Source: Frondihabitans australicus (GTDB lineage: Bacteria > Actinomycetota > Actinomycetes > Actinomycetales > Microbacteriaceae). Taken from it: a stretch of DNA of 64,000 nt. The position numbers were made by a program, and so were the translations under genes. The DNA is taken from positions 1,736,001 to 1,800,000 of the forward strand of contig NZ_RBKS01000001.1 of assembly GCF_003634555.1 (NCBI RefSeq), in the 5' to 3' direction. The notes under the pieces were generated by a model that was given only the letters and a program-made list of their open reading frames with translations, was not told where the DNA came from and did no database searches. Below are positions 6,990-52,113 of the stretch, one piece after another. Position 1 is the first letter of the stretch. Every line of letters begins with the position of its first letter.

Positions 6990-7055
6990 GCCCGGCCGCT
7001 GGCTCCTGCGCCAGCGCCATAGGCGGCTCATAGAGTCGGCGGATATCCTGCACGA

Positions 7056-8564
7056 ATGGACACACTGGCAGGCCTGATCGCCACCCGTTCGACCGAGGCG
7101 CCGTCTGCGCACTACCTCGAAGACGCCCGCTCCGAGCGCGTCATCACGTTCGCCGCCCTGGCGTCGCGCACCGCCGAGTGGGCCGACGTCTTCGACGACC
7201 GCGGGCTCTCCGCCGGCGCGACGGTCGTGCTCGACGTGCGCGACCCGCTGTCGTTCGCCGTGGCTCACCTCGCCGTCGTCGCGTCCGGCCGCCGCAGCGT
7301 GCCGGTCAACCCGCAGGGCACGTGGTCCGAGACGCTGAAGTCCGTGGACCTCGGGTCGTCCGAGGCCGTGATCACCGATCGCGACGAGCCGGGCGAGACC
7401 GACGTCGTGGTGCTCCGGCCCGAGGCCTCGACCGGTTCTCCCGCTGAGGCGACCGGGGCGCAGGATCGCGAGAGCCGCACGCCCGACACCTCCTCGAAGA
7501 CCGAGACCGCGCCCTCCGGCTCCGTGATCCTCTTCACCTCCGGATCCACCGGCCAGCCGAAGGGCGTCGAGCTCACCGAAGCGCAGCTGCTCTTCGTCGC
7601 CCGGGCGATCGCCGAGCACAACGCGCTCACGAGTGCCGACCGAGGCTTCAACTCGCTGCCGCTCTTCCACGTGAACGCCGAGGTCGTCGGCCTCCTGTCG
7701 ACCCTCGTCGCGGGCGCCACTCTCGTGCTCGACGACCGGTTCCACCGCACCGGCTTCTGGGAGCTCCTCGCGGAGCGGCGCATCACGTGGCTGAACGCCG
7801 TGCCTGCGATCCTCGCCGTGCTGGCGAAGTCCGGCCCCGCGCAGGCGCCCGAGGGGCTGCGCTTCGTCCGCAGCGCCTCGTCGGCCCTGCCCGAGGCCGT
7901 CCGCACCGCCTTCGCCCACGTGCCCATGATCATCAGCTACGGCATGACCGAGGGCGCCAGCCAGATCACTGCGACCCCGCTCGGCGTCGAGCCTCGGCCC
8001 GGCTCCGTCGGCCTGCCCGTCGGCGGCGAGGTCGAGCCCCGCGACGCCGAGGGCCGCGCGCTGCCCGTGGGCGAGATCGGCGAGCTCTGGATCCGCGGGC
8101 CGGGCGTCGTGAAGGGCTACTTCCAGGGCCGCGCCGCCGAGCGCTTCGACGCCGACGGCTGGCTCCGCACCGGCGACCTCGGCCACCTCGACGCCGACGG
8201 CTGGGTGTACCTCGCCGGCCGCACCGACGACGTCATCAACCGCGGTGGCGAGAAGGTCTACCCGGCCGAGGTCGAGGACGTCCTGCTGGAGGACGCCCGG
8301 GTCCGAGAGGCCGTCGTCGTGGCGAGACCCGACGACGTCCTCGGCTTCGTCCCGGTCGCGTATGTCATCCCCGCCGACCTGTCGCTGCCGGACGACGTCC
8401 GGGCCTCCCTCTCCACCGACCTCGGTAAGCGCTGCGAGGCGGAGCTCCCCCGCTTCAAACGCCCGATGGAGATCACCGTCGTCGACGACCTGCCACGCAC
8501 TCCGACGGGCAAGGTGCAGCGCAACAAGACCAGGCAGATGCTCGCCGAGGCAGCGGGGGCGTGA
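7056..8564 (+). CDS. AMP-dependent acyl/aryl synthetase (adenylate-forming ligase)
   Basis: A 502-residue class I adenylate-forming enzyme that activates a carboxylic acid with ATP, usually to a CoA thioester. Core motifs are visible in order: LFTSGSTGQPKG (A3, near residue 155), YGMTEG (A5), WLRTGDLG (A7), GRTDDVINRGGEKVYPAEVE (hinge, A8) and PRTPTGKVQR with the C-terminal catalytic Lys (A10). A low-complexity Ser/Thr/Glu stretch (about 120-150) precedes A3 and may be a flexible insertion. TATCCT six bases before the ATG points to a leaderless start. Its stop overlaps the start of a membrane acyltransferase, so the two are probably co-translated. Substrate unknown; CoA as acceptor is assumed, not shown. 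Confidence 0.9.
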   Translation: MDTLAGLIATRSTEAPSAHYLEDARSERVITFAALASRTAEWADVFDDRGLSAGATVVLDVRDPLSFAVAHLAVVASGRRSVPVNPQGTWSETLKSVDLGSSEAVITDRDEPGETDVVVLRPEASTGSPAEATGAQDRESRTPDTSSKTETAPSGSVILFTSGSTGQPKGVELTEAQLLFVARAIAEHNALTSADRGFNSLPLFHVNAEVVGLLSTLVAGATLVLDDRFHRTGFWELLAERRITWLNAVPAILAVLAKSGPAQAPEGLRFVRSASSALPEAVRTAFAHVPMIISYGMTEGASQITATPLGVEPRPGSVGLPVGGEVEPRDAEGRALPVGEIGELWIRGPGVVKGYFQGRAAERFDADGWLRTGDLGHLDADGWVYLAGRTDDVINRGGEKVYPAEVEDVLLEDARVREAVVVARPDDVLGFVPVAYVIPADLSLPDDVRASLSTDLGKRCEAELPRFKRPMEITVVDDLPRTPTGKVQRNKTRQMLAEAAGA

Positions 8565-9775
8565 GCGAGGGCACGTCGCAGCGGGCGGCCGAGTCCGCCG
8601 ACGCCGACGATCTGGTGAGCGGGGCCGCGGCCGCCTCGGCTCCCGAGCCCGCCGACACTCCCGCGCAGGCGAAGGCCAGGCGCCGCCACCTCTACGAGGT
8701 CGACATCCTGCGGATCCTGACGTTCGTCTGCGTCATCTCCGTGCACGTGGTGAGCCACGCCGACAGCGCGAGCGACCTGGGGCAGAACGGCTTCCTGATC
8801 CTGGTCCATTTCACCCGCGAGGTGTTCTTCGCCCTGACCGCGTTCGTGCTCGTGCTGTCGTTCCTCGCGAAGCCGAGGCCGCTGCGCGAGTTCTGGCCGA
8901 AGCGGTTCCTGCTCGTCGCGCTCCCCTACGTCACCTGGTCGGCCGTCTACGACTTCGCCTCGTGGGTGCACAGCCCCTCGGGCACGCTCGGCGACTGGCT
9001 CGCGAACTTCTGGCACGACCTCTACACCGGAAACGCCTGGTACCACCTGTACTTCCTGCTCGTGACCATGCAGGTGTACCTCTTGATGCCCGTGATCGTG
9101 TGGCTCGTGAAGAAGACGCGCGGCCACCACGGACTCGTCATCGGCCTGTCGTTCGCCGTCGAGATGTTCTTCACGGTCTGCTACCAGTACTACCCGAGCG
9201 TGATCCCGCACGCGATCAGCCAGTACAGCCGCATCGAGTTCTGGAGCTACGAGTTCATGATCGTGCTGGGCGCTGTGGCCGCCGACCACGTCGACCCGCT
9301 CATGGCCTGGGTGCGCAGGAGCAGGCTCACGATCCTCGGGCTGGTCGTCGCCGGCGCCCTGCTCTCGATCGCCGTCTACGCGATCAACCTCGGCCTCGGT
9401 CAGAGCCCGGTGAAGGCCTCGACGGCGCTGCAGCCGGTCGTGCTGGTGTGGTCGGTGCCCGTGATCCTCGGCTTCCTCGCGCTCGGCACGAAGTGGGCCG
9501 ACCAGCGCGTCGCAGGCTCCCGCTTCGCGCGCCTCGTCGACACGGCCTCCGACCGCTCCTTCGGCATCTTCCTCGCCCACCCGTTCTTCATCTGGCTGCT
9601 GCTGCTCGCCGGCGGCGGCTGGATCACGCACACGATCCCGGACGGCCCGCGCGCCGTGGTGCTCTACGTGCTGGTCGTCCTCTGCACCGTCGCGTTCATC
9701 GAGATCCTGCGCCGCACCCCGCTCAGCCTTCCGCTGACGGGGCGACCGTTCCGCTCCGGGCGCAAGAAGGCCTGA
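8561..9775 (+). CDS. Acyltransferase 3 family integral membrane protein
   Basis: 404 residues with a polar 45-residue cytoplasmic N-terminus, then about ten hydrophobic segments. The first contains EVDILRILTFVCVISVHVVSH, matching the R...H pattern of OafA/YrhL-type O-acyltransferases, which move acyl groups across the membrane onto sugars or lipids. The end (FLAHPFFIWLLLL) is typical. The GTG start overlaps the ligase stop by four bases (GTGA), implying translational coupling. Context suggests the ligase supplies an activated acyl group that this protein transfers to a cell-surface or exported molecule; that is inference. Confidence 0.85.
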   Translation: MSEGTSQRAAESADADDLVSGAAAASAPEPADTPAQAKARRRHLYEVDILRILTFVCVISVHVVSHADSASDLGQNGFLILVHFTREVFFALTAFVLVLSFLAKPRPLREFWPKRFLLVALPYVTWSAVYDFASWVHSPSGTLGDWLANFWHDLYTGNAWYHLYFLLVTMQVYLLMPVIVWLVKKTRGHHGLVIGLSFAVEMFFTVCYQYYPSVIPHAISQYSRIEFWSYEFMIVLGAVAADHVDPLMAWVRRSRLTILGLVVAGALLSIAVYAINLGLGQSPVKASTALQPVVLVWSVPVILGFLALGTKWADQRVAGSRFARLVDTASDRSFGIFLAHPFFIWLLLLAGGGWITHTIPDGPRAVVLYVLVVLCTVAFIEILRRTPLSLPLTGRPFRSGRKKA

Positions 9776-9777
9776 CT

Positions 9778-11609: not shown

Positions 11610-12062
11610 TCACGATCCTAGCAGAGCCCTCGGCCTGCTCCTGCGCCTGGGTGCGAAGGTGACCCGCATCAGGAGCGCGAGGAACGCGCCGGCCGCTCCC
11701 CCGAGGCCGTTGTGGAGCACGTCGTTCATGTCCTCCACGCGGGTCGAGGCGAGGAACGTGCCCTGGTACGTCTCGATGCCGTAGGAGGCGAGGACGCACA
11801 GGGCGGCCGCGACGATCCAGAGCGGACGCGGGAAGAACAGCGCCAGGAAGAAGCCGAGCGGCACGAACATCGCGACGTTCGCCAGGCTCTCGACCGTGTC
11901 GAAGGTCAGCCAGCTCGTCGAGCGGTGCTCGGCGAAGATCGCGAGCGCCCGGTAGAGCAGCGTGGCGGTGCGGCCGTCGTAGACGGACGTGCGGAGCGTC
12001 ATCCAGGCGATGAACCCGCAGTAGAGCGCGGTCACGACGAGGAGCCAGGGGCGGAACTTCAT
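11610..12062 (-). CDS. VanZ-like family membrane protein
   Basis: About 150 residues with four hydrophobic segments and the VanZ core: FDTVESLANVAMFVPLGFFLALF, YGIETYQGTFLASTRVEDMNDVLHNGLGGAAGAF. VanZ-like proteins are widespread membrane proteins; in Enterococcus VanZ raises teicoplanin resistance, but most relatives, including this one, have unknown roles. ATG 12062 (MKFRPW) and ATG 12080 (MRHHRR) are both possible; neither has a close ribosome site. It follows a NERD-like gene on the same strand after 41 bases, so the two may be co-transcribed. Confidence 0.85.
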   Translation of the reverse strand: MKFRPWLLVVTALYCGFIAWMTLRTSVYDGRTATLLYRALAIFAEHRSTSWLTFDTVESLANVAMFVPLGFFLALFFPRPLWIVAAALCVLASYGIETYQGTFLASTRVEDMNDVLHNGLGGAAGAFLALLMRVTFAPRRRSRPRALLGS

Positions 12063-12103: not shown

Positions 12104-12937
12104 TCAGCTGGACAGCTGCTGGACGACCATCGGCGCGATGACGGCGGCGGCGGCCACGGTGCCCGAGAGACCCGTGACCCAGGCGAGCCGCACCCGGCGA
12201 GCGCGAGCGACCTCGGTGCGCAGGCGGGCGAACCAGAAGCCGAGTTCCGAGGCGGTGGGATGGGCGTGGGATCCTGCGCCCGGAGCCGACGAGGAGAAGA
12301 CCGCGGTCTCCCCCGGCGCACGCCAGGTGCGCGGCTTGAGGGCGACCCGGGTGATCTCGCGGACCTCCTCGACCGACTGGACCGGCACGAGGGAGCGGAG
12401 GTGGCGCACGAGCCGGTCGAGGCCGACGACGTCGACGCCCGGGATCTCGGCGGGGCGGCGTCCGGGCTCGACCACGACGGTGATCGCGCGGACCACCGCG
12501 GGGCGACCGAGCGCGTTGGAGAGAAGGGTCGAGGCGAGGCGGGCCTCGACGAGCGGTTCGCGCACGTGCGTCTCCGAGCCGGACTCGTCGCGGGTGGCCG
12601 TGCTCAGGGCGAAGACTCCGGCGGGGCCGATGACGAGGTGGTCGATCGCGGGGGCGCCGGCGACCACGGGGATCGCGTGGAGCACGCGCCACGGCTCGCC
12701 CGAGGTGCTCAGGGTGCGCAGCAGCTCGGCGGTGCGGGCCTCGCCGAGCGCGGGCGCGAACCAGGCGCGGGCCGAGTCACCCAGGGGGCTGCGGCCCAGG
12801 ATCCGAGACGCTCGCGTCCGCGGTGCGACCGGCGCCTGACGGTCCCACAGCGCCTCCACGGCGGAGATCGCAGCGGCGCCCGAACCGGGGTGCGTGAGCA
12901 CCTGCGCTGCGTCGTCGTCGGGGGCGGAGATCGTCAC
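12104..12937 (-). CDS. NERD-like (nuclease-related domain) protein with C-terminal membrane anchor
   Basis: 277 residues. Residues about 105-180 contain WRVLHAIPVVAGAPAIDHLV followed by IGPAGVFAL, a clear match to the NERD core, where IDHLVIGPxGVF is conserved. In active NERD nucleases a Lys follows in the next strand (xxAKxxxG); here the run is STATRDES, with no Lys, so catalysis is doubtful. A hydrophobic helix (about 250-272) near the C-terminus should anchor it. GTG 12937 is chosen for its AAAGG site and because upstream sequence is non-conserved. It is divergent from a membrane metallopeptidase and shares its 140-base promoter region. Confidence 0.75.
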   Translation of the reverse strand: MTISAPDDDAAQVLTHPGSGAAAISAVEALWDRQAPVAPRTRASRILGRSPLGDSARAWFAPALGEARTAELLRTLSTSGEPWRVLHAIPVVAGAPAIDHLVIGPAGVFALSTATRDESGSETHVREPLVEARLASTLLSNALGRPAVVRAITVVVEPGRRPAEIPGVDVVGLDRLVRHLRSLVPVQSVEEVREITRVALKPRTWRAPGETAVFSSSAPGAGSHAHPTASELGFWFARLRTEVARARRVRLAWVTGLSGTVAAAAVIAPMVVQQLSS

Positions 12938-13803: not shown

Positions 13804-13835
13804 CGCCGCTCCTGCGCCCCGGCCCTTCGCTGCCC

Positions 13836-13897
13836 CTGCGACAAAACGCGACACCTGCGACGCATCCGGGTGTCGCAGGTGTCGCGTTTTGTCGCAG
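13836..13897. repeat. Long hairpin, family A copy 1
   Basis: A perfect inverted repeat of 26 bases per arm (13836-13861 and 13872-13897) around a 10-base loop. The arm begins CTGCGACAAAACGCGACACC. It lies between the convergent ends of the metallopeptidase gene and apt, so it could terminate both. A second copy is at 15657-15714. Confidence 0.9.
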
Positions 13898-15623: not shown

Positions 15624-15656
15624 GTTCGCCTGCTCCTGCGACTTCGAAGCCCCTCA

Positions 15657-16094: not shown

Positions 16095-18353
16095 TCAGGC
16101 GAGCGAGACGACGGTGAGGCGCTGCGTCGGCCGGGTCTCGGCGACGTAGAGGCTCGCGTTGCCGCGCGACGACCGGGCGACGATGCCGGCAGGGTCGACG
16201 ACGACGACCGAGTCGAACTCCAGCCCCTTCGACGTGGCCGGGCTGAGCACGCTGATCGGCCGCGTCAGCGACGACGAGCCGTCGGCCACGAGGCCCGGGA
16301 ACGCCGCCGAGAGCGCCGCCAGCAGCGACGTGACGAGGGGTTCGGGGGCGATGACGGCCAGGGTGCCGCCCGAGTCGACGGCGCAGTCGGCCTCCACGGC
16401 CGAGACCACGGTGGGCGCAGGATCCTGCACCCTGCCGGGCACCGAGACCTCTCGTACCGCCCACTCGCTCGCCCGCACCGACCGGCTCGGCGTGATCTCG
16501 AGCCCCGTGCTGCGCGCGGTCGCCTCGGCGTACTCGACGATCTGCGACGGCGTCCGGTAGTTCACAGTGAGCTCTTCCAGCCGCCAGGATCCGCCCGCCT
16601 GCGCGGCCCCGCGCCTCCTCGGCAGAAGACCCTGCAGCGCGCGGTCCCACGACGTCGCCGACGCGGGCGACGACGCCTGCGCGATGTCGCCGACGACGGT
16701 GAACGACCGGAGCGGGCAGCGTCGCGCCAGCAGGCGCCACTGCATGGGCGAGAGCTCTTGCGCCTCGTCGACGACGACGTGGCCGTAGGCCCAGGTGCGG
16801 TCGTCGGCGGCGCGCTCGGCCGAGGTCAGCGAGACGGCGCGCTCGGCGAAGTTGCCCGCGATATCGCGGGCGTCGACGAGGCCCTCGACCTGCATGTTCT
16901 CGATGGCGCGCTCGGCGTTCTCGATGTCGCGCTTCTGCTGCTGCTTGAGGGCGCGGCGCTCGGCGTCGACCTTCGTGTCGAACTCGCCGAGGAGCTCGGC
17001 AGCCTCGTCGAGCAGCGGGACGTCGCTGATCGTGAACGCCTCGCCTCGCGCACGGCGCAGCAGAGCACGATCCTCGGGCGACCAGCGCTGCGTGATCGAG
17101 GCCAGCCAGTTCGGCCGCGCGTACAGGTCTTCGAGCAGCTTCTCGGGGCTGAGCGGGATCCACGCCGTGTTGAGCAGGACTCGCACGTCGTACGACTGCC
17201 GGACGTCCTCGCGGAGCACCAGCTCGTCGGCGTCGTCGATCGTCGTGCCGCGGCCCCGGAGCTGGTCGACAAGCTGCCGGGTGAGGGCTGCGAGGGCGTA
17301 GCGGTTGAAGAGCACGCGGCCCTCGTTGTGCGGCTTCCCTCGCTCCTGCGCCCGCTTGAGCGCCTCGGCGACGAGGCCCGGCTGGACCGTCATCCGCTCG
17401 CCGTCGATCTCGACGTCGGACGGCTCGGTCGGCGCGATCTGCCGCGAGCGCACGGCCCGGCGGAGCAGGTCGGCCATCTGCCCCGAGCCCTTCAGGGCGG
17501 CGGTCGCGGGGGCGTCGTCGGCCGTGGCCTCGACGCCCGGGTAGAGGCCGCCGAGGCTCGACAGCACCACGCCCGACTCGCCGAGCGACGGCAGGACCTG
17601 CTCGATGTAGCGGAGGAACGAGCGGCTGGGGCCGACGACGAGCACGCCCGAGCCACGCAGGCGCTCGCGGTGCGAGTAGAGCAGGAACGCCGCGCGGTGG
17701 AGGGCCACGGCGGTCTTGCCGGTGCCCGGGCCGCCCTGCACGACGAGGATCCCGTCGAGCGCCGAGCGGATGATCCGGTCCTGCTCGGCCTGGATCGTGG
17801 CCACGATGTCGGTCATGCGCCCGGTGCGCTGAGCGGTGAGGGCCGCCATGAGAGCGCCCTCTCCCTGCAGCTGCACGTCGTCGCGGCCCAGCAGCTCGGG
17901 GTCGAACACCTCGTCCTCGATGCGGGTGACCTCGCGGCCCTGCAGTGTGAGGTGGCGGCGGGCCCTCGCGCCCATGGGCGTGGCCGCGGTGGCCTGGTAG
18001 AACGCGCTCGCGCCGGGCACGCGCCAGTCGAGCAGGATCGGGTGATGGTCGGTGTCGCGGAGCCCGATCCGCCCGATGTACCGGTATCGGCCCGAGCCCG
18101 AGATCGACGGGTCGTCAGGATCGGTGAGCTCGAGCCTCCCGAACGCCAACCGGTCGTCGACCTCGCCCAGCTGCGCGAGGGTGTCCTCGTAGAGACGCGC
18201 GTAGGCGTCGCGCTCGCTGCGGCTCTGGTGGTTGCCGCCGACGGTCTCGCGGCGGGTCTCGGCCAGTCTCGCGCGCGCGTCGTCCTTCAGGGTGTCGAGG
18301 CGCTCGTAGAGAGCGCCGACGTAGTCGCGTTCGCGGTCGAGTTCAGATGGCAC
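16095..18353 (-). CDS. helD: HelD-type RNA polymerase-associated ATPase (UvrD-like superfamily 1)
   Basis: 752 residues. An N-terminal coiled-coil (about 1-60) is followed by the split superfamily 1 core: YIGRIGLRDTDHHPILLDWR, GGPGTGKTAVALHRAAFLLY (Walker A, near residue 205), VVDEAQELSPMQW (Walker B) and late motifs STSKGLEFDSVVVVDP. This arrangement is typical of HelD, which enters RNA polymerase channels and recycles stalled complexes; related HelR proteins give rifamycin tolerance in some actinobacteria. GTG start at 18353. Upstream is a promoter with TAGAAT and a palindromic region (18373-18425). Whether it is a HelR-type resistance factor cannot be told by eye. Confidence 0.85.
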   Translation of the reverse strand: MPSELDRERDYVGALYERLDTLKDDARARLAETRRETVGGNHQSRSERDAYARLYEDTLAQLGEVDDRLAFGRLELTDPDDPSISGSGRYRYIGRIGLRDTDHHPILLDWRVPGASAFYQATAATPMGARARRHLTLQGREVTRIEDEVFDPELLGRDDVQLQGEGALMAALTAQRTGRMTDIVATIQAEQDRIIRSALDGILVVQGGPGTGKTAVALHRAAFLLYSHRERLRGSGVLVVGPSRSFLRYIEQVLPSLGESGVVLSSLGGLYPGVEATADDAPATAALKGSGQMADLLRRAVRSRQIAPTEPSDVEIDGERMTVQPGLVAEALKRAQERGKPHNEGRVLFNRYALAALTRQLVDQLRGRGTTIDDADELVLREDVRQSYDVRVLLNTAWIPLSPEKLLEDLYARPNWLASITQRWSPEDRALLRRARGEAFTISDVPLLDEAAELLGEFDTKVDAERRALKQQQKRDIENAERAIENMQVEGLVDARDIAGNFAERAVSLTSAERAADDRTWAYGHVVVDEAQELSPMQWRLLARRCPLRSFTVVGDIAQASSPASATSWDRALQGLLPRRRGAAQAGGSWRLEELTVNYRTPSQIVEYAEATARSTGLEITPSRSVRASEWAVREVSVPGRVQDPAPTVVSAVEADCAVDSGGTLAVIAPEPLVTSLLAALSAAFPGLVADGSSSLTRPISVLSPATSKGLEFDSVVVVDPAGIVARSSRGNASLYVAETRPTQRLTVVSLA

Positions 18354-38139: not shown

Positions 38140-39669
38140 TCAGAGATGGGGCACGAACGCCTGCCAGACACGGCGCCGCTCGCCCCGGGGGTCGAACTCG
38201 ACGCGGTCGACGGTGTCGATGATGAGGGTGCGGCGGCGGTGCGGATCGTAGGAGGGCCAGTCGTTCACGGCCCCGGTGCGCACGAACTCGAGCCAGCGCC
38301 GCCGCATCCTGCGACCGGCCCGGAGGAAGGCGCGACGACCGCCCAGGAGGCTCATGGTGCGGCCGAAAGCTGAATCCATGCGGTCGAAGAGCGCGTAGAG
38401 GTCGAGGCCGTGGAAGGCGTCGACGCCGGCGACCCGGAGGATCCGCGGCGCGACGTCGAACCGGTAGAAGTAGACCTTCGCGAAGCGGCAGTGCCGCTCG
38501 GCGACCTTGATCGACGGGTACCAGAACGAGAAGTCGCCGCCGAAGTCGAGGGCCGCGGGGCGGTGCGGCAGCCCGGGGTACTGCGCCTGGATCGCCTTGC
38601 GCGCTTTCTTCTTCGTGTTGGCGAAGATCGACCGGATGCGCAGGGGCGTCGTCGCCAGGATGTCGCGGCGCCCCGTGAACACCGACCCCTCGCGGTCGTT
38701 CGTGCCGATGATGAGCGGCACCGGAGCCGCACGGCCGGCCTTGAAGGCGTCGAGCGGACGCTCGGGCAGGAGGTCGCCGTCGATGACCGGCGACAGGAAG
38801 ATCGAGCCGGGCTGGTCGTCGGGCGCCCGGTGGAAGAGTCGCTCGGTGGCCGTCACGATCGCACGGGTGGGCGCCGCGTGCAGGAGTGCTGCGCCGTCTT
38901 CGAGCGACGTCGACTCGAGGTCGTCGTCGCGGACGACGCGGCTGAGGATCTCGAGGAAGTCGGCGGCCCACCGCTCGGTGACGTCGGGCGGGTAGATCGC
39001 GTTCGCCGGCGACGACTGAGCGATGGCGCCGGAGAACAGGCCTCGTGCGCGCGGCACCGTCATGAGCGTGGTGACCGCGTTGGCTCCTGAGCTCTCGCCG
39101 CAGATCGTGACGCGCTCGGGGTCGCCGCCGAATGCCGAGATGTTGTCGTGGACCCACTCGAGGGCTGCGACCTGGTCGCGGAGGCCCAGGTTCGACTCGA
39201 TCGGGTGCTCGGGCGTCGACCAGGCCGAGAAGTCGACGTAGCCGAAGGCGCCGAGGCGGTAGTTGAAGCTCACGTAGACGATGCCGCCCTCGCGCACGAG
39301 CGACTCGCCCTGGTGCGGGAACTCGCGCGCGCTGCCCACGGCGTAGGCGCCGCCGTGGATGTAGACCATCACCGGGAGGGCTTCGCCTGCTCCTGCGCCC
39401 TGCGGTGCGATGACGTTGATCGTGAGGCAGTCCTCGCTCTGCGGCGTGGCCTGGTCGATGCCCACGAAACGCGAGCGGTCCTGCGGGGCCGCAGCGCCGA
39501 AGTGGGCGGCGCTGCGGACGCCCTGCCAGGGCTCGGGGGGCGCAGGAGCACGGAATCGCCGCTCGCCGACGGGTGCGAGCGCGAACGGCATGCCGCGCCA
39601 CGAGAGCACCCCGCGCTCGAGCACCCCCTCGACGTCGCCCGAGGTGGTCCGTCTGATCAGTCCCGCCAT
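38140..39669 (-). CDS. Type B carboxylesterase/lipase
   Basis: 509 residues of the cholinesterase-like alpha/beta hydrolase family. SEDCLTINVIAP and VMVYIHGGAYAVGSA (oxyanion hole) precede VTICGESSGANAVTT (nucleophile elbow, Ser near residue 195), LIIGTNDREG carries the acidic residue region and FHGLDLYALF the His region. No signal peptide, so cytoplasmic. It hydrolyses carboxylic esters; natural substrate unknown. The ATG at 39669 has no strong ribosome site. The 11-mer GGCGCAGGAGC/complement occurs twice within it (39389, 39539). Confidence 0.9.
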   Translation of the reverse strand: MAGLIRRTTSGDVEGVLERGVLSWRGMPFALAPVGERRFRAPAPPEPWQGVRSAAHFGAAAPQDRSRFVGIDQATPQSEDCLTINVIAPQGAGAGEALPVMVYIHGGAYAVGSAREFPHQGESLVREGGIVYVSFNYRLGAFGYVDFSAWSTPEHPIESNLGLRDQVAALEWVHDNISAFGGDPERVTICGESSGANAVTTLMTVPRARGLFSGAIAQSSPANAIYPPDVTERWAADFLEILSRVVRDDDLESTSLEDGAALLHAAPTRAIVTATERLFHRAPDDQPGSIFLSPVIDGDLLPERPLDAFKAGRAAPVPLIIGTNDREGSVFTGRRDILATTPLRIRSIFANTKKKARKAIQAQYPGLPHRPAALDFGGDFSFWYPSIKVAERHCRFAKVYFYRFDVAPRILRVAGVDAFHGLDLYALFDRMDSAFGRTMSLLGGRRAFLRAGRRMRRRWLEFVRTGAVNDWPSYDPHRRRTLIIDTVDRVEFDPRGERRRVWQAFVPHL

Positions 39670-42394: not shown

Positions 42395-42456
42395 CCGGAG
42401 GTCGCCCGCCGGGCGCGACCACGGGCTCCTGCGCCGAAGCCCTACCCGCGCAGAAA

Positions 42457-44427: not shown

Positions 44428-44512
44428 ACGCGCTCACTGTCGGCGGCCTGGGGCGCAGGAGCAGGCGACACCCTCCCGGGGCCGTGTCAGCGCCCTTCAC
44501 TAGGCTTGCGCC

Positions 44513-46729
44513 ATGGCACTCCCCGACGTCCCGCACGCTCCGATCGCCCCGAAGAAGCCCGTCGTCCGCTCGCATCACGGCCGCGACTTCGTCGACGACT
44601 ACGAGTGGCTGCGCGAGAAGGAGAGCCCCGAGGTCGTCGCCCACCTCGAGGCCGAGAACGCGTACACCGAGCTCACCGTGCGGCACCTCGAGCCGCTGCG
44701 GGAGCGCGTCTTCGAGGAGATCAAGGGGCGGGTCCAGGAGACCGACCTCGGCGTGCCGACCCGCGAGGGCGGCTACTGGTACTACTCGCGCACGGCCGAG
44801 GGCAGGCAGTACGGCATCCAGTGCCGCCTCCCGATCCAGGGCCCCGACGACTGGACCCCGCCGACCATCGAGGCGGGCGTGGCCGCGGCCGGCGAAGAGG
44901 TGATCTTCGACGGCAACGTCGAGGCGGACGGCCACGACTTCTTCTCGCTGGGCTCGTTCGACGTCTCCGCCGACGGTTCGCTGCTCGCCTACGCCGTCGA
45001 CGTGGAGGGCGACGAGCGGTACACGCTGAAGGTGCGCGACCTCTCCACGGGCGACGACCTCCCCGACGAGATCGCCGAGACGGCTCCGGGTGCGACGTTC
45101 GACGCCTCCGGCCGGTACCTCTTCTATCCCACGGTCGACGAGTCGTGGCGCCCCGACACCATCTGGCGGCACGAGGTGGGCCAGGCTCCTGCGGCCGGTG
45201 GCGGGCGAGCGGACGTCAAGGTCTTCGAGGAGCCCGACGACCGCTACTGGATCGGCGTGGGCCTCACCCGCAGCCGCCAGTACCTCGTCATCGAGGCCGG
45301 CTCGAAGATCACGAGCGAGGCGTGGCTGCTCGACTCGGCCGACGCCACCGGCGACTTCCGCGTCGTCTGGCCGCGCGAGGAGGGCGTCGAGTACGACATC
45401 GACCACGCCATCGTCGACGGCAGCGACCGGCTGCTCATCACACACAACCGCGGGGCGGTGAACTTCGAGCTCGTCGACGTGCCGGCCGACGACCCGGTGT
45501 CGACGACCGACCGGCGCGTCGTCATCGCGCACAGCGACCAGCGACGGCTCGAGTCGGTCGAGGCGTTCGCCGGCCACCTGCTCGTCGACTTCCGCGAGGC
45601 CGGGCTGTCGCGCATCGGCGTGATCGCTCTGCCCGGCGGCGGCCACGGGTTCGGGCCGCTCAGGACGCTGGAGTTCGACGAGGAGCTCTTCACGGCCGGC
45701 TGGTCGTCCAACCCCGAGTTCACGCAGGCCACGGCGCGCTTCGGCTACACCTCGTTCGTCACCCCGTCGACCGTCTTCGACCTCGACGTCGCGACCGGCG
45801 AGCGAACCGTCCTCAAGCAGCAGGTCGTGCTCGGCGACTACGACCCCGCCGCCTACGCCGAGAGCCGCGAGTGGGCCGAGGCCTCGGACGGCACACGGGT
45901 GCCGGTGTCGCTGGTCTGGCGTCGCGACGCCGTCGAGCCCGGGCGCCCTGCCCCCCTGCACCTCTACGGCTACGGCTCGTACGAGCACAGCATCGACCCG
46001 TCGTTCAGCGTCGCTCGCCTCAGCCTCCTCGACCGCGGCGTCGTCTTCGCCGTGGCGCACGTGCGCGGCGGCGGCGAGATGGGCCGCACCTGGTACGAGA
46101 ACGGCAAGACGCTCATGAAGCGCAACACGTTCACCGACTTCGTGGCCGTCGCCGACCACCTGATCCGCGAGGGCCGGACCACGCCGCAGCGTCTCGTCGC
46201 CGAGGGCGGCAGCGCCGGCGGCCTGCTCATGGGCGCGATCGCGAACCTCGCCCCCGACCGCTTCGCCGGCGTCCTGGCCGCCGTGCCGTTCGTCGACGCG
46301 CTCACGAGCATCCTCGACCCCGACCTGCCGCTCACCGTGATCGAGTGGGACGAGTGGGGCGACCCCCTGCACGACCCCGAGGTCTACGACTACATGGCCT
46401 CGTACTCTCCCTACGAGAACGTCCCCGACGACGCCTCCGCCTACCCGCGGATCCTCGCCGTCACCAGCTTCAACGACACCCGCGTGCTCTACGTCGAGCC
46501 GGCGAAGTGGGTCGCGAGGCTGCGCGAGGCGGGGGCGCCGGTCAGCCTCAAGATCGAGATGCAGGCGGGGCACGGCGGCGTCTCGGGCCGCTACGAGTCG
46601 TGGCGCGAGCGGGCGTTCGAGATCGCCTGGATCCTCGACGTGCTCGGGCTCGCGGGCTCGGGAAGCGACCCCGTCTCCGGTATTGACACCGCGGCGGCGG
46701 TCGAGCCGGGCGCAGGAGCCGAGGCGTAG
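44513..46729 (+). CDS. Prolyl oligopeptidase family protein (S9A), oligopeptidase B-like
   Basis: 738 residues. A seven-bladed propeller covers about 70-420 and an alpha/beta hydrolase domain the rest. PLHLYGYGSYEHSIDPSF, AHVRGGGEMGRTWYENGK, LVAEGGSAGGLLMGAIANL (catalytic Ser near 567), and QAGHGGVSGRYESWRE (His) match oligopeptidase B, which cleaves small peptides after basic residues in the cytoplasm. TAGGCT six bases before the ATG gives a leaderless start. The C-terminal tail (AVEPGAGAEA) carries one copy of the 11-mer. The next gene follows after two bases, so they share a transcript. Confidence 0.92.
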   Translation: MALPDVPHAPIAPKKPVVRSHHGRDFVDDYEWLREKESPEVVAHLEAENAYTELTVRHLEPLRERVFEEIKGRVQETDLGVPTREGGYWYYSRTAEGRQYGIQCRLPIQGPDDWTPPTIEAGVAAAGEEVIFDGNVEADGHDFFSLGSFDVSADGSLLAYAVDVEGDERYTLKVRDLSTGDDLPDEIAETAPGATFDASGRYLFYPTVDESWRPDTIWRHEVGQAPAAGGGRADVKVFEEPDDRYWIGVGLTRSRQYLVIEAGSKITSEAWLLDSADATGDFRVVWPREEGVEYDIDHAIVDGSDRLLITHNRGAVNFELVDVPADDPVSTTDRRVVIAHSDQRRLESVEAFAGHLLVDFREAGLSRIGVIALPGGGHGFGPLRTLEFDEELFTAGWSSNPEFTQATARFGYTSFVTPSTVFDLDVATGERTVLKQQVVLGDYDPAAYAESREWAEASDGTRVPVSLVWRRDAVEPGRPAPLHLYGYGSYEHSIDPSFSVARLSLLDRGVVFAVAHVRGGGEMGRTWYENGKTLMKRNTFTDFVAVADHLIREGRTTPQRLVAEGGSAGGLLMGAIANLAPDRFAGVLAAVPFVDALTSILDPDLPLTVIEWDEWGDPLHDPEVYDYMASYSPYENVPDDASAYPRILAVTSFNDTRVLYVEPAKWVARLREAGAPVSLKIEMQAGHGGVSGRYESWRERAFEIAWILDVLGLAGSGSDPVSGIDTAAAVEPGAGAEA

Positions 46730-47312: not shown

Positions 47313-48854
47313 TCACAGCCCCTTCGCGGCCCGGCGAAGGCCGGCCAAAGCCGACCGGCGATCCGCGTCGGCGAGGGTGACGATCACACCGTAGGCGAAG
47401 GTGTCCTCGCCGGCACGGCGGGCCGCGTCGGCCGACTGCTCCACCCAGGTCGCGAGCGCGTCGGCGTCGAGGGCGTCGCCGAGGAGGTCCTGGAGACCGT
47501 GCGTGGTGCGCCGGGCGGCCTTCGTGCCCTTCACCCCGGCGGACTTCGCGGCTTCGAGGGCGTACCGGAGGCGGCGGGCGGCCTTGCGGGCCGAGTGGAC
47601 GGTCTCGCGGCGGACTCCCCCGGCTCCTGACACCGCGGTCGTCGCCGCCCGAACGCGCCGGTGCGCCCGCTTCGCCTCGAGCGCGAGCGAGTCGGCGATG
47701 AACTCGTCGCTGTCGTCGAGGGCGCGGTCGCCCTCCGGCTCGGTCACGGGCAGGGCCTCGAGGCGGTCGAGGAGCTCGAAGTAGGCGGGGTCGTCGAGGG
47801 CGCGCTCGAGGTCGATCGCGGCCTCGCGCGAGGTCTCGCGGAGGGCCGCGCGCATGCGGGCCAGCGACTCGTGCGGCAATCGGCCGTCGGGCGCGGCGTC
47901 GGCGTAGTGCTCCAGGAGCTCCGCGCGCACCTCGAGATCGCGGGCGACACTCGCCGCGCGGCCGGCCGTGCGGAGGGCGTCGGCGAGCCAGGCGGCCTCG
48001 TCGTCGGGCAGGACGCCGCGGTACACGGTGAGGATGCTCCGGATCCTGCGCACGGTGGTGCGGAATCGGTGGACGGCATCCGCCTCGCCCGAGCGCACCA
48101 GCGGATCGACCGTCACGAGGTCGCCGACGAGCGGGGCGATCGCGTCGTACACGAACTCGGCGGCGCTGCCGAGCTCGAGCTCGACGGGTTCGAGGGCGAC
48201 CGGCGCGGGCACGTCGACGCCGGCGAAGACGGCCGAGAGCCCGCGGGCGAGCTTCGACTTCGACGACGACACCCGTGCACCCGCCGCGACGAGGGTCTCG
48301 CCGACGGTGTCGAGCAGAGCCTCCCCGTCGGCGCGGTCGACGCCGGGCGCCAGCTCGACCTCCCACTCGCGCCAGGTCGAGGCGGGCGCAGGATCCGACA
48401 CGGCCGGGTCGGACGCCGTCACCTCGTCGTCCGCGACCTCGCCGAGCACGGCCCCGTCGGCGTCGACCAGCCGGGTCACGGTGCGGGTGGTGGCCAGCGT
48501 GAGCACCGGGTGCACGGGACGCCCGCGCAGCACCGACTCGACGACCCGCCGGAGCTCGGCCGGCAGCGCCTCGTCGGGGTCGGCGCCGAGCGGCGAGTGG
48601 ACCTCGCGGCGGGCTCCGGCCGACGCGGGCAGCTTCACGTGCCAGCCCTCGTCTGCGCCGCCCTCGCGGCGACGCAGGGTGATGCGGTTGCCCAGCAAGA
48701 CGTGGTCGGCCGTGTCGAGGTACGTCGCGCGGAGCTCCACCGGCTCCTGCGTCTCGGCCCGCTGGATCGGACCCGTGCCCGCCAGGTCGGGCACCCTCAC
48801 CGCCTCGTCGACGTCGTACTTGCGCTCGATCTCGAGGGAGGTGGTGGGGCTCAT
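47313..48854 (-). CDS. CYTH and CHAD domain protein
   Basis: 513 residues. The N-terminal CYTH domain (about 1-200) starts with the EIERKYD triphosphate-binding motif and has RRREGGADEGWHVKLP and RTVTRLVDADGAVLGEVADDEV. The C-terminal CHAD domain (about 215-513) is rich in conserved His/Arg/Lys (VHRFRTTVRRIRSILTVY, VHSARKAARRLRYALEA), which bind polyphosphate. Such fusions act as triphosphatases linked to polyphosphate granules. ATG 48854, not a longer frame, is the start; CACAAT six bases before it may be the -10. Confidence 0.95.
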   Translation of the reverse strand: MSPTTSLEIERKYDVDEAVRVPDLAGTGPIQRAETQEPVELRATYLDTADHVLLGNRITLRRREGGADEGWHVKLPASAGARREVHSPLGADPDEALPAELRRVVESVLRGRPVHPVLTLATTRTVTRLVDADGAVLGEVADDEVTASDPAVSDPAPASTWREWEVELAPGVDRADGEALLDTVGETLVAAGARVSSSKSKLARGLSAVFAGVDVPAPVALEPVELELGSAAEFVYDAIAPLVGDLVTVDPLVRSGEADAVHRFRTTVRRIRSILTVYRGVLPDDEAAWLADALRTAGRAASVARDLEVRAELLEHYADAAPDGRLPHESLARMRAALRETSREAAIDLERALDDPAYFELLDRLEALPVTEPEGDRALDDSDEFIADSLALEAKRAHRRVRAATTAVSGAGGVRRETVHSARKAARRLRYALEAAKSAGVKGTKAARRTTHGLQDLLGDALDADALATWVEQSADAARRAGEDTFAYGVIVTLADADRRSALAGLRRAAKGL

Positions 48855-48966
48855 CGGTCCATTGTGTCGGTCGCGCGGACCGAGCGCGCACGCGGGCCGC
48901 CGCGCACAGGACAACCGGGGGCAACCATCAGGCGACGGGGTACGCGACGGGCGTAGTCTGCGACGC

Positions 48967-50331
48967 ATGAGCACTGTCGCCCCCTCTCTCGCCGGCTGGA
49001 TGGCGCGTCAGCGCTGGTATGCGAGCAAGGGGCGAACGCCGAGGATCTCGGTGATCGGCAGCATGGAGAGCTCGTTCGACGACGGCATCGTCATGACCCT
49101 CCTCGTACTCGACGAGGGCCCGACCGTGCCGGTTCTCTACCAGGTGCCGCTCGTGGCGCGCATGTCGCCTCTCCCGGGCGGCGACGCGGCGTTCATCGGC
49201 TCCAGCGACGGCCTCTACCTCTATGACGGGCCCCACGACCCGGTGTACGCCGCGGGCCTGCTCAACACTCTCGCCTCAGAGCGGCACGTCGACGGCTCCG
49301 ACGTCACGGCCGACGGTCACCGCGTCGGCGACGCCGGCCGCTATGTGCGCTCGAAGGTGCTCGAGGGCGAGCAGTCGAACACGTCGATCGTCTACCAGGT
49401 GCAGGCCGCCGACGACACGCCCGCGCAGGTCGTCGCCAAGGTGTTCCGCGTGCTCCACCACGGCGACAACCCCGACGTCACCTCGCAGGCCGCCCTCACG
49501 GCCGGCGGCTCCACGCGCGTGCCCGAGGCGTTCGGCTACCTCACCGCGTCGTGGCCAGACCCGGGCCGCGAGGAGGGGCGCGCACACGGCCACCTCGCCT
49601 TCGCGCAGGAGTTCCTGGCCGGGTCGACCGACGCCTGGCGCGTCGCCCTCAACGCGGCCCGGCACGGAACCGACTTCACCGAGGCCGCCCGCGACCTCGG
49701 CCTCGCCGTCGCCGCCGTGCACGCCACCCTGGCGTCGCAGCTCGGCACCGTGGCGGCCACCCCCGACGCGATCGAGGGCGCGCTGGCCAGCATGCGACGC
49801 CGTATCGCCACGGCCGCCCGCGAGGTGCCCGAGGTCGAGCCGTTCGCCGAGGGCGCCCTCGCCGTCTACGAGGCGGCAGCTCAGGCCGACTGGCCCGCCC
49901 TGCAGCGGATCCACGGCGATCTCCACCTCGGCCAGGCGCTCCAGACGCCGGCGCGCGGGTGGATCCTCCTCGACTTCGAGGGCGAGCCCCTTCGCCCCAT
50001 GCCCGAGCGGTCGCGCCCCGACGTCACCCTGCGCGACGTCGCCGGCATGCTCCGCTCGTTCGACTACGTCGCCGGCTCGCTCGCGCAGGAGCGCCCACGC
50101 ATCGACGCCGCCGCCTGGGCGCACGCCGCGCGGCGAGCCTTCGTCGACGGCTACATCGAGGGCTCGGGCGTCGACGTCCGCGCGCAGCGCGCGCTGCTCG
50201 ACGCGTTCGAGATCGACAAGGCCGTCTACGAGGCGATCTACGAGTCGCGGAACCGGCCCGGCTGGGTCGGGATCCCGGTGGCGGCGGTCGAGCGGCTGGT
50301 GTCGCGTGGGGCAGGAGCCCGGACCGCCTGA
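48967..50331 (+). CDS. Maltokinase (Pep2-type)
   Basis: 454 residues. ARQRWYASKGRTPRISVIGS is the typical N-terminal cap (WxxxKGR), SKVLEGEQSNTSIVYQ the nucleotide loop, and RIHGDLHLGQALQTPARGWILLDFEGEP the kinase catalytic and metal motifs, as in actinobacterial Pep2/Mak. It phosphorylates maltose to maltose 1-phosphate for GlgE glucan synthesis. TreS, GlgE and GlgB, its usual neighbours, are not in this window. TAGTCT lies seven bases before the ATG, leaderless pattern. A trehalose-related or other sugar kinase is possible. Confidence 0.88.
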   Translation: MSTVAPSLAGWMARQRWYASKGRTPRISVIGSMESSFDDGIVMTLLVLDEGPTVPVLYQVPLVARMSPLPGGDAAFIGSSDGLYLYDGPHDPVYAAGLLNTLASERHVDGSDVTADGHRVGDAGRYVRSKVLEGEQSNTSIVYQVQAADDTPAQVVAKVFRVLHHGDNPDVTSQAALTAGGSTRVPEAFGYLTASWPDPGREEGRAHGHLAFAQEFLAGSTDAWRVALNAARHGTDFTEAARDLGLAVAAVHATLASQLGTVAATPDAIEGALASMRRRIATAAREVPEVEPFAEGALAVYEAAAQADWPALQRIHGDLHLGQALQTPARGWILLDFEGEPLRPMPERSRPDVTLRDVAGMLRSFDYVAGSLAQERPRIDAAAWAHAARRAFVDGYIEGSGVDVRAQRALLDAFEIDKAVYEAIYESRNRPGWVGIPVAAVERLVSRGAGARTA

Positions 50332-50355
50332 CCGACCACCTGCTCCTGCGCCCCG

Positions 50356-52113
50356 CTACGGCCGGGGGACGTTGCGGAGGTTCGACCGCGCCATCGCGAC
50401 CGCCTCGCCCGCGCCGCCGTTCATGACCACCTTCGACATCGCGAGCGCGAAGCCCTTCACCTGCGTCGCCGTGATCGTCGGCGGCAGCGACAGCGCACGC
50501 GGGTCGGTCGCGATGTCGAGCAACGCCGGTCCGTCGTGCTCGAGCACCGCCTCCATCGCCGATTCCAGATCGGCGGGGTCGTCGACGTGCACCGCGTGGA
50601 TCCCGAGCGCCCGGGCGACGGCGGCGTAGTCGGTCGCTGGCACGTCGACGCCGAAGTCGGGGAACCCCGCCACCAGCATCTCGACCTTCACCAGCCCGAG
50701 GGTCGAGTTGTTGAAGACGACGATCTTCACCGGGATCCGGTACGCCGCCACGGTCACGAGCTCGCCGAGTAGCATCGACAGCCCGCCGTCACCCGACATC
50801 GACACGATCTGCCGCCCCGGGTACGCGTACGCCGCGCCCATCGCCTGTGGCAGGGCGTTCGCCATCGACCCGTGCAGGAACGACCCGATGATCCGCCTGC
50901 GCCCGTTCGGCGTGATGTATCGCGCGCTCCACACGTTCGACATGCCGGTGTCGGCGGTGAACACGGCGTCGTCGGCGGCGAGACGGTCGAGCAGCGATGC
51001 CGCGTACTCCGGGTGGATCGGCACGATCTTCGCGGCGTCCTTCGTGTACGACCCGACGACTCCGGTCATGAGCTTCTCGTGCTTCTTCAGCAGGCCGTCG
51101 AGGAAGCGAGAGCTCTTCTTCGGGGTGATCAGCGGCAGGAGCCGGTCGAGCGTCGCCCCCACATCGCCGTGCACCCCGATCTGCACGTCCGCCCGCCGCC
51201 CGATGTTCGCCGCATTCGAGTCGATCTGGGCGATGACGACCTTCGGCGAGTCCGGAAGGAACTGCTCGTACGGGAAGTCCGTGCCGATCATGAGCATGAG
51301 GTCGGCGTCGTGGATGCCGGCGTGAGCGGCGCCGTAGCCGAGGAGGCCCGTCATGCCCACGTCGAACGGGTTGTCGTACTGGATGACGTCCTTGCCGCGC
51401 ATGGAGTGGCCGATCGGGGCTTTCAGGGCGTCGGCCAGGGCGATCACGCGGTCGTGGTGTCCCGCTGCTCCTGCGCCCACGAACAGCGCCACGGTCTTGG
51501 CCTTGTCGAGCGCCGCGGCGAGGGTGCGCACGGCCTCGTCGTCGGGCTCGAGCCTGCCCGGTTTCACGTCGACGAACGCCGGCACGTGGCCGGACGCCTC
51601 GAACTCGGCGATGTCGCCGGGCAGCGTGATGACGCTCACGCCGCCGCCCGCGAGGGAGTGGCGGATCGCGCTCGCGACGACCCGCGGTGCCTGCTCGGCG
51701 GTCGAGATCATCTCGCAGTAGCCGGAGCACTCGGTGAACAGGCGGTCGGGGTGGGTCTCCTGGAAGTACGACAGGCCGATCTGCGAGGCCGGGATGTGGC
51801 TGGCGATCGCGAGGACCGGCGCACCCGACCGGTGCGCGTCGAAGAGGCCGTTGATGAGGTGGAGGTTGCCGGGGCCGCAGGATCCCGCGCACACCGCCAG
51901 CTCGCCGGTGAGCTGCGCGTCGGCGGAGGCCATGAACGCGGCGGCCTCCTCGTGCCGCACGTGGATCCAGTCGATGCCGCCCTTGGCAGAACCGCCCGTG
52001 CGACGGACGGCGTCGACCACGGGGTTCAGGCTGTCGCCGACGATGCCGTAGATGCGTTTCACCCCGGCGGCGAGGAGCTGGGCGATGAGCTGGTCGGCGA
52101 TGGTCTGGGCCAC
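50356..52113 (-). CDS. poxB: Pyruvate dehydrogenase (quinone), PoxB-type
   Basis: 585 residues of the ThDP-dependent family. RHEEAAAFMASADAQLTGELAVCAG is the ThDP active-site Glu region; SMSGDGGLSMLLGELVTVAAYRIPVKIVVFNNS is the GDG-N ThDP-Mg motif; the middle FAD domain follows ALFVGAGAAGHH. It oxidises pyruvate to acetate and CO2, passing electrons to quinone at the membrane. GTG 52113 is chosen for AAAGG upstream and because a longer frame lacks homology. Convergent with the maltokinase. Confidence 0.93.
   Translation of the reverse strand: MAQTIADQLIAQLLAAGVKRIYGIVGDSLNPVVDAVRRTGGSAKGGIDWIHVRHEEAAAFMASADAQLTGELAVCAGSCGPGNLHLINGLFDAHRSGAPVLAIASHIPASQIGLSYFQETHPDRLFTECSGYCEMISTAEQAPRVVASAIRHSLAGGGVSVITLPGDIAEFEASGHVPAFVDVKPGRLEPDDEAVRTLAAALDKAKTVALFVGAGAAGHHDRVIALADALKAPIGHSMRGKDVIQYDNPFDVGMTGLLGYGAAHAGIHDADLMLMIGTDFPYEQFLPDSPKVVIAQIDSNAANIGRRADVQIGVHGDVGATLDRLLPLITPKKSSRFLDGLLKKHEKLMTGVVGSYTKDAAKIVPIHPEYAASLLDRLAADDAVFTADTGMSNVWSARYITPNGRRRIIGSFLHGSMANALPQAMGAAYAYPGRQIVSMSGDGGLSMLLGELVTVAAYRIPVKIVVFNNSTLGLVKVEMLVAGFPDFGVDVPATDYAAVARALGIHAVHVDDPADLESAMEAVLEHDGPALLDIATDPRALSLPPTITATQVKGFALAMSKVVMNGGAGEAVAMARSNLRNVPRP

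Follow-up and report, generated by a model that had tools for sequence, protein, structure and literature searches.

The chromosome of Frondihabitans australicus (genome code G000) carries many copies of a short, non-palindromic, degenerate motif, G[AC]TCCTGCG[AC]CC, whose strongest form is the 11-mer GCTCCTGCGCC, and our analysis suggests that this motif may be a self-DNA mark resembling the DNA uptake sequences with which Neisseria and Haemophilus tell their own DNA from foreign DNA, spelled in different dialects by related species. We consider this the best reading, with about an even chance of being right, and what we propose is a likeness to uptake sequences; membership among them is not claimed. 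The reading is favoured because the motif is amplified, comes in dialects, lacks polarity, is scarce in low-GC DNA, has inverted neighbours and turns over quickly at its sites, and because ComEC and type IV pilus genes are present in the genus. The window to which we refer throughout is a 64-kb stretch comprising bases 1,736,001-1,800,000 of the one-contig, 4,036,723-base chromosome.

Abundance and shape of the motif

In the window, GCTCCTGCGCC is the most frequent 11-mer, with 13 exact copies (10 on the plus strand and 3 on the minus strand). An earlier note on this DNA had listed 12 of them by eye; all are exact and correctly placed, and a thirteenth at 36325 (+) had been overlooked. Markov models of the window of order 1-4 predict 0.18-0.91 copies, an excess of at least 14-fold, and the order-5 expectation of 1.6 copies is too high, since copies of the motif are part of the training sequence. 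The whole chromosome holds 527 exact copies (270 forward and 257 reverse) compared with 27 (15 and 12) for the reversed word, so the genome-wide count is not near expectation, and the word is not confined to the window, as 13 copies here compare with an average of 8.4 per 64 kb. The earlier note had also remarked that nine of its twelve copies lie on the same strand, which is accurate (the minus-strand ones are at 39539, 44452 and 46709), but the imbalance is not a general property, with 10:3 in the window and 270:257 genome-wide.

The shape of the motif was examined in 864 kb of sequence, made up of the window and 40 stretches of 20 kb across the chromosome, from which the remaining counts in this section are taken. 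A position weight matrix seeded with the 11-mer produced G[AC]TCCTGCG[AC]CC with weak preferences immediately upstream, and at score 13 it matched 605 times, as opposed to 43 on the reversed sequence. The two branches GCTCCTGCGCC (125 copies) and GATCCTGCGCC (91 copies) belong to one motif and thus account for both words in the earlier note, which had called a related form, CAGGATCC, very frequent. That was correct, with 260 copies found and 61 expected from an order-3 model, and CAGGATCC represents the motif's second branch, GGATCCTG, in which G[AC]TCCTG takes its A form. Further counts are 322 for ATCCTGCG, 328 for CTCCTGCG, 58 for GTCCTGCG and 36 for TTCCTGCG. The core G[AC]TCCTGCG is found 517 times, i.e., 0.60 per kb, or about 2,415 per genome by extrapolation. 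Strong conservation stops about 7 bp upstream and 1-2 bp downstream of the 11-mer, and a longer mobile repeat was rejected since the conserved flanks end within a few bp.

As a null for codon usage, synonymous codons were shuffled inside each gene with all proteins unchanged. Genes contain 424 cores compared with 60 after shuffling (ratio 7.1), 135 copies of the 12-mer compared with 4.2 (32-fold) and 95 copies of the 11-mer compared with 8.9, while the reversed core stands at 0.7 times the shuffle. The coding sites occupy both strands and all six frames, some frames being favoured. The earlier note's argument that protein coding is an insufficient cause is therefore upheld, and a codon-usage artefact is ruled out as the full explanation.

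Related words in sister species

Seven genomes of the genus (G000-G006) were compared, the genus-mates having about 77-80% nucleotide identity. The PNPase of G000 is 94-95% identical to those of its genus-mates and 90-92% identical to those of Frigoribacterium and Curtobacterium. Strong enrichment of the exact 11-mer is limited to G000: its copies number 104 in G003, compared with 50 for the control, and 16-29 in the other five genomes. Word counts made de novo over 100-140 kb of each of the six genus-mates placed an own related word, a variant around TCCT, among the strongest in all six: GCATCCTGC and GGATCCTGC in G001, GAGTTCCTGCGC in G002, GGGCATCCTGCG with GGCTCCTGC in G003, CGGATCCT[GT] in G004, GGATCCTGC[CG] in G005 and CGATCCTGCGC in G006. 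A mixture model of the TCCTG flanks was dropped because it caught codon periodicity in G001, G002, G003, G005, G006 and the control sets, and words were counted in held-out regions instead.

For the held-out counts, six 9-mers containing TCCT were picked on one part of each genome and counted in a separate region. Their density is 1083-2233 per Mb in the genome they came from, and in 80 named loci from other genera it is 11-219 per Mb. Those of G002, G003 and G004 are at least 1.6-fold lower in every other genome, those of G000 are merely 1.1-fold lower in G006, and for those of G001 and G005 the count in G006 exceeds that in the own genome, because their words overlap. WTCCTGCG was also counted across 299 family genomes. 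Six genus members have it at about 287-618 per Mb, and the seventh, G004, whose dialect the word matches in part, at 177; the highest density found among the other 292 genomes is about 232 per Mb, from the 673 copies that G075 has in 2.9 Mb.

Sites turn over quickly between these species. In 50 aligned orthologous genes, the motif of G000 stands at the same place in a relative in 13 of 106 comparisons, and over all ordered genome pairs the site is shared in 113 of 851 comparisons, which is far above the density expectation, as homology predicts. Amino-acid identity for G000 is 0.57 at motif codons, 0.65 in the flanks and 0.76 overall, a dip that is smaller or absent in G003-G006. One example, which is not a statistic, shows that a shared site can be re-spelled into each species' own form: at the aligned site in the window gene 27873-28313, G000 has GGCTCCTGCGC, G001 GCATCCTGCGC, G002 AGTTCCTGCGG and G006 CGATCCTGCGC.

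Related words in other genera of Microbacteriaceae

From each of five PilM-bearing genomes of other genera (G091, G118, G007, G011 and G137) we sampled 80 kb. The word CGGCATCCG or parts of it lead in the first four and CGCCTCCT-type words in G137, and in genes the leading words of the five stand at 2.4-6.7 times the synonymous shuffle. By comparison, GGCATCCG in G000 stands at 1.2 times the shuffle and GATCCTGC in G091 at 3.3 times, the latter on 9 copies. Copy numbers of CGGCATCCG over 150 family genomes run from a handful up to 3,084 (G169, 717 per Mb) and 2,929 (G129, 771 per Mb), and its density exceeds 200 per Mb in 48 of them.

Named genomes were examined at loci around PNPase, whose counts are not independent because the loci are homologous. 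There, the density of GGCATCCG is 718 per Mb over 13 loci of Agromyces and 627 per Mb over 13 of Microbacterium, and it is above 900 per Mb in single loci of Galbitalea, Ruicaihuangia and Leifsonia Root4. The word GCGCCTCC, which is amplified in G137 as well, stands at 703 per Mb over three loci of Frigoribacterium, compared with 75 for its reversed form. Neither word is above control in the PNPase loci of Curtobacterium, Rathayibacter, Labedella and Plantibacter (GGCATCCG 90-135 per Mb, reversed 0-86). In Curtobacterium loci (L052, L054-L067, L091), CGGGAGGC/GCCTCCCG between genes and AGCTTGCC are frequent, an enrichment that could be shared ancestry since the loci are homologous.

The earlier note's suggestion of a genus-specific repeat thus holds for the class of motif, which is genus-wide with dialects. 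It fails for the exact word, strongly enriched in one species only (16-104 copies in the other six genus genomes), and for the restriction to the genus, as amplified related words turn up in further genera of Microbacteriaceae.

Placement along the chromosome and orientation of neighbours

In the 864-kb sample, 424 of the 517 cores lie inside genes, and 61 of the 197 12-mers of G000 are intergenic. Compared with the expectation from length, the intergenic 12-mer is enriched 5.1-fold between convergent, 2.3-fold between tandem and 1.5-fold between divergent genes, and the core between divergent genes stands at 0.9 times. Cores per 5 kb are Poisson-like (mean 2.99, variance 3.23, 172 bins). Bins below 66% GC contain 3 cores in 65 kb, or 1.4 times the expectation for independent, identically distributed bases; the other bins stand at 13-20 times.

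A chromosome-orientation signal had been among the candidates of the earlier note. With the origin set at dnaA (C1:3,086,630), which was found by a dnaA search after DnaA-box and parS patterns gave no clear origin, 263 cores of the sample are on the leading and 254 on the lagging strand (p = 0.72), and forward 11-mer density is 64.4 vs 68.5 per Mb in two chromosome parts. As there is no strand bias from origin to terminus, chromosome polarity, FtsK-orienting polar sequences (KOPS) and architecture-imparting sequences were rejected as explanations.

Neighbouring cores in G000 tend to face in opposite directions. Below 300 bp, 65 pairs of neighbours are opposite and 14 the same; below 800 bp, the numbers are 139 and 47 (p = 9e-12). 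Same-strand pairs closer than 150 bp number 1 vs about 23 expected, a shortage that fades near 800 bp, and of the 28 adjacent inverted pairs closer than 150 bp, 21 are within genes. An excess of opposite pairs was significant for none of the ten words used as controls; a leaning toward the same orientation was seen for GATGCCG and, in weak form, for CGAGGCCG, CGGCTTC and TCGGCGAT. Opposite pairs outnumber same-strand pairs in 11 of the 12 genomes compared.

Competence and pilus genes

All seven genomes of the genus encode ComEC (in two pieces in G001), and all have a PilB-like ATPase, an adjoining PilT-like ATPase and a separate third T2SSE ATPase. The two ComEC pieces (G001:C1:2981383-2982173) match in different frames, and PilT, PilC and PilM are called short in G005 (L260); decay or sequencing error could be behind either. 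The pilus operon of G000 encodes PilB, PilT, PilC, two pilins, three proteins in minor-pilin positions (two of them with an N-methylation motif), PilD, PilM, PilN and PilO, of which PilB, PilM, PilO and the pilins were identified by Pfam match and the other members were named from gene order and sequence. The ComEA of G000 has 196 residues with SLBB and helix-hairpin-helix domains. Identity to genus-mates is 34-68% for the minor-pilin-like proteins and 92-96% for PilB.

PilM is present in 76 of the 150 family genomes. The median density of CGGCATCCG is 176 per Mb in genomes with PilM vs 64 per Mb in those without it (p = 4.6e-7), and among genomes of at least 2.4 Mb it is 203 vs 95 per Mb (p = 0.005). 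Ten genera mix genomes with and without PilM; with g87 left out for the partial PilB of G157, the PilM-bearing genomes are higher in 7 of 9 and lower in g54 and g63.

Interpretation and alternatives

If the favoured reading is right, a short non-palindromic self-DNA mark would act in the manner of a DNA uptake sequence. Some component of the transformation machinery that binds DNA sequence-specifically would prefer DNA bearing the mark, the fragments taken up would recombine into the chromosome, and the mark would accumulate on both strands of long-resident DNA. As the specificity of the reader drifted, the mark would follow, and species dialects would arise about a TCC core that hardly changes. 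Candidate readers are a minor pilin, a part of a Tad/Flp pilus or ComEA, and we infer that the mark acts in uptake or recombination. Several traits reported for uptake sequences in the available text of PMC1626085, PMC2397512 and PMC3630211 recur here: amplification beyond codon usage toward about 1 per kb (the G000 core is at 0.60 per kb and CGGCATCCG at up to 0.77 per kb, in G129), absence of replication orientation bias and close opposite pairs (both in G000), scarcity in recently acquired DNA with low GC as the proxy, and dialects with a constant core (from the held-out counts in the seven genus genomes, with overlap among G001, G005 and G006). No uptake sequence in Actinobacteria was reported in the literature surveyed, which covered titles and abstract openings, most subscription journals and preprints being outside its scope.

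A number of observations weigh against a mark of this kind. Spacing in 5-kb bins is not more even than random, although even spacing is a reported trait of uptake sequences. Known uptake sequences are also reported to prefer one orientation in reading frames (PMC2346458, available text), whereas the cores in genes are 207 sense and 217 antisense; nor is there a position bias along genes of the kind the same source reports for Pasteurellaceae (Kolmogorov-Smirnov p = 0.58 for sense and p = 0.26 for antisense sites). Only three genomes, G000, G137 and G002, show clear enrichment at gene ends or in non-coding DNA; it is weaker in G005, and a non-coding preference is not clear in G001, G003, G004, G006, G091, G118, G007 and G011; in counts confined to intergenic DNA, the own word is among the top in all genus-mates but G001. 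The orientation rule below 800 bp reaches p < 0.05 in 5 of 12 genomes (G000, G004, G006, G137 and G007) and is not significant in G001, G002, G003, G005, G091, G118 and G011, and for the exact 11-mer alone there are 6 same and 11 opposite pairs (p = 0.33, small numbers). The synonymous-shuffle null is itself imperfect, because the codon-type control word CGCCGACGA reaches 1.7 times the shuffle.

The link to the pilus is likewise incomplete. By genus, the association with PilM is weak (p = 0.064 in genomes of at least 2.4 Mb; p = 0.026 without g1 and g56, which use other words), and in 40 of the 76 PilM-bearing genomes CGGCATCCG, the one word counted, is at or below 200 per Mb. Eight genomes that are at least 99% complete (G071, G142, G085, G153, G088, G107, G169 and G133) are rich in CGGCATCCG, at 211-717 per Mb, and PilM and PilB were not found in them beyond weak, distant cross-matches to T2SSE ATPases; the fragmented G027 and G082 are likewise word-rich without PilM or PilB, while G151 and G157 do carry PilB or a part of it. 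The type IV pilus as an absolute requirement is ruled out by these eight genomes, and type IV pili are thus not the reader everywhere. A comparison of dialect distance with distances of pilus, ComEA and housekeeping proteins (7 genomes, 21 pairs) gave partial r from -0.43 to 0.45 and supported no reader. The actinobacterium Micrococcus luteus, which has ComEA and ComEC, is reported to transform by way of Flp/Tad pili (PMC6370729, available text), which makes a reader other than the type IV pilus conceivable.

The main rival to the uptake-type mark is a Chi-like recombination signal, and in this form the recombination hotspot proposed in the earlier note stays a live candidate. An exonuclease of the AdnAB, AddAB or RecBCD type would respond to the word in one orientation, and the word would so mark self DNA for repair and recombination. 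The strand GGGCGCAGGA[GT]C is G-rich like that of Chi, low-GC DNA is poor in the word, opposite-facing neighbours would serve both ends of a break, and the word is amplified in genomes where PilM and PilB were not found. We nevertheless judge it unlikely: the near-equal split between leading and lagging strands departs from the bias of Escherichia coli Chi, the 9-12 informative bases exceed the length of Chi sites, the intergenic enrichment at 3' ends in G000 does not fit, and a change of word between species whose PNPase is 94-95% identical leaves the rapid re-spelling unexplained. Slightly less likely still is a nucleoid protein site, another candidate of the earlier note: an abundant protein that organises the chromosome or associates with the nucleoid would bind the word, and its specificity would have drifted from species to species. 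Occurrence on both strands and in all frames at a Poisson-like density would suit such a protein, as would inverted neighbours if it were a bridging dimer. Against it, convergent gene ends are enriched and divergent ones little or not at all, and nucleoid proteins are not known to recognise words of this length, present at about 0.6 per kb, whose spelling differs among species of a single genus.

The remaining explanations are far less probable. An interspersed mobile repeat of the repetitive extragenic palindromic (REP) or REP doublet (REPIN) type, copied by a REP-associated tyrosine transposase (RAYT), would account for some short inverted pairs such as GCGCAGGATCCGCGGATCCTGCGC. REP/REPIN elements are palindromes of 20-40 bp that lie mostly outside genes and have conserved flanks, and with most cores in genes, in all six frames, and conservation limited to the few bp described above, we regard this origin as very improbable. 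A by-product of codons or composition in a GC-rich genome, e.g., Leu-Leu-Arg as CTC CTG CGC, would agree with the largely coding location and the favoured frames; it is barely credible given the 7-fold and 32-fold excesses over the shuffle, the 0.7-fold reversed word and relatives of similar GC without this word. Hardly any probability attaches to a transcription terminator or 3'-end processing element either: the 12-mer enrichment between convergent and tandem genes and inverted pairs able to form hairpins would fit one, but less than a third of the 12-mers are between genes and three quarters of the closely spaced inverted pairs lie inside them. The earlier note's interpretation as a whole is partly supported.

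Sites in the window and other repeats

Table 1. Matches to the 11-mer and to the 9-mer core in the window
Feature	Position	Strand	Basis	Remark
Exact 11-mer GCTCCTGCGCC	7002..7012	+	exact match	
Exact 11-mer	11637..11647	+	exact match	
Exact 11-mer	13808..13818	+	exact match	
Exact 11-mer	17342..17352	+	exact match	
Exact 11-mer	25551..25561	+	exact match	
Exact 11-mer	36325..36335	+	exact match	absent from earlier list
Exact 11-mer	39389..39399	+	exact match	
Exact 11-mer	39539..39549	-	exact match	inverted neighbour of 39389
Exact 11-mer	42425..42435	+	exact match	
Exact 11-mer	44452..44462	-	exact match	
Exact 11-mer	46709..46719	-	exact match	
Exact 11-mer	50342..50352	+	exact match	
Exact 11-mer	51467..51477	+	exact match	
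9-mer core G[AC]TCCTGCG	7459..7467	-	match to core	
9-mer core	9314..9322	-	match to core	
9-mer core	9703..9711	+	match to core	
9-mer core	12270..12278	+	match to core	
9-mer core	15632..15640	+	match to core	
9-mer core	16416..16424	-	match to core	
9-mer core	20198..20206	-	match to core	
9-mer core	21461..21469	-	match to core	
9-mer core	23593..23601	+	match to core	
9-mer core	27904..27912	-	match to core	within gene 27873-28313; aligned site re-spelled in G001, G002, G006
9-mer core	29264..29272	-	match to core	
9-mer core	30082..30090	-	match to core	
9-mer core	34717..34725	-	match to core	
9-mer core	45185..45193	+	match to core	
9-mer core	48042..48050	+	match to core	
9-mer core	48387..48395	-	match to core	
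9-mer core	48743..48751	+	match to core	
9-mer core	50084..50092	-	match to core	
9-mer core	51876..51884	-	match to core	
9-mer core	56820..56828	-	match to core	
9-mer core	58836..58844	+	match to core	
9-mer core	59277..59285	-	match to core	
9-mer core	60677..60685	+	match to core	inverted neighbour of 60722
9-mer core	60722..60730	-	match to core	inverted neighbour of 60677
9-mer core	62383..62391	-	match to core	

Other repeats were seen alongside the motif. At 13840-13893 and 15659-15712 of the window, a pair of similar inverted repeats sits between convergent genes, with GCGACAAAACGCGACAYCTGCGAC and its reverse complement on either side of a short centre. The sequence AAAACGCGACA occurs 20 times in the 864-kb sample, so these elements look like a separate REP-like or terminator family. 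Palindromes of CCTGAATTCAGG stand in two intergenic clusters (G000:C1 708309, 708366, 1609932 and 1609994), and another interspersed G000 sequence, CCTCCCAAAAACGACTCTGC, was assembled from overlapping enriched words with about 8-11 copies each in 864 kb. Unrelated to the main motif are GAGACTCCAC/GTGGAGTCTC, strongly enriched in G003 (G003 and G004 stretches L135-L140 and L153-L159), and AGACTCC words between genes in G004. The G002 stretches (L132-L134, L149-L152) have runs of at least 9 G/C, with 38 nine-mer counts vs less than 1 expected, as well as TTCACCTAC/GTAGGTGAA words. The window also encodes, at 16095-18353 (-), a HelR/HelD-type RNA polymerase recycling ATPase, to which four NCBIfam models matched below their curated cut-offs.

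Significance and comparison with known systems

More broadly, many Microbacteriaceae may mark their chromosomes with related passwords of the uptake type. Agromyces, Microbacterium and others would use CGGCATCCG, Frigoribacterium GCGCCTCC, and the genus of the window species dialects such as G[AC]TCCTGCGCC, GTTCCTGCGC, GGGCATCCTGC, CGGATCCT[GT] and CGATCCTGCGC. This would be the first such system outside two Gram-negative families, with an orientation rule of about 800 bp that goes beyond the known close inverted pairs and a reader that switches specificity between sister species, so that a dialect switch would isolate species genetically. We offer this wider proposal tentatively, as it is a little more apt to fall than to stand. 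In the source text available, Neisseriaceae and Pasteurellaceae are described as recognising their own DNA by repeated words, and the reader and purpose of this recognition (sex, repair or selfish spread) are debated. If the proposal is true, one actinobacterial family with several words, some differing within one genus, would provide many natural replicates, in the form of homologous positions at which sites arose, vanished or changed spelling and of genomes that have or lack type IV pili, and would guide the choice of DNA to offer these bacteria in experiments. Should the motif be Chi-like or chromosome-organising instead, its fast re-spelling would be equally surprising.

Chi sites are short, asymmetric, G-rich, over-represented and species-specific words, all of which the motif resembles; it differs in lacking co-orientation with replication, in its longer word and in its gene-end enrichment in G000. 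HIP1 of cyanobacteria, a very abundant and conserved palindromic octamer, is likewise a very abundant short word of a bacterial group, whereas the word described here is non-palindromic and differs between species.

The uptake signal sequences (USS) of Pasteurellaceae, of the Hin and Apl types, are reported to occur at about 1 copy per kb, without replication orientation bias, with some opposite close pairs and with variants specific to subclades (PMC1626085, PMC2346458, available text), and the motif is like them in each of these respects. Unlike them, it shows no AT-rich flanking tracts, has more variants within one genus, is not spaced more regularly than random and has no orientation or gene-end preference within genes. 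The DNA uptake sequences (DUS) of Neisseriaceae are reported as words of about 10-12 bp in 1,543-3,770 copies in the genomes named there, with dialects around a constant three-base core in several genera and five genomes without an abundant repeat (PMC3630211, available text), and as under-represented in low-GC acquired genes (PMC2397512, available text). The present system differs from them in belonging to another phylum, in the 66-72% GC of the sampled genomes, in its word, in an opposite-neighbour orientation that reaches about 800 bp in G000, and in several bearers without PilM and PilB. It is nevertheless like DUS in motif length, copy number, species dialects, occurrence in several genera of one family and scarcity in low-GC DNA.

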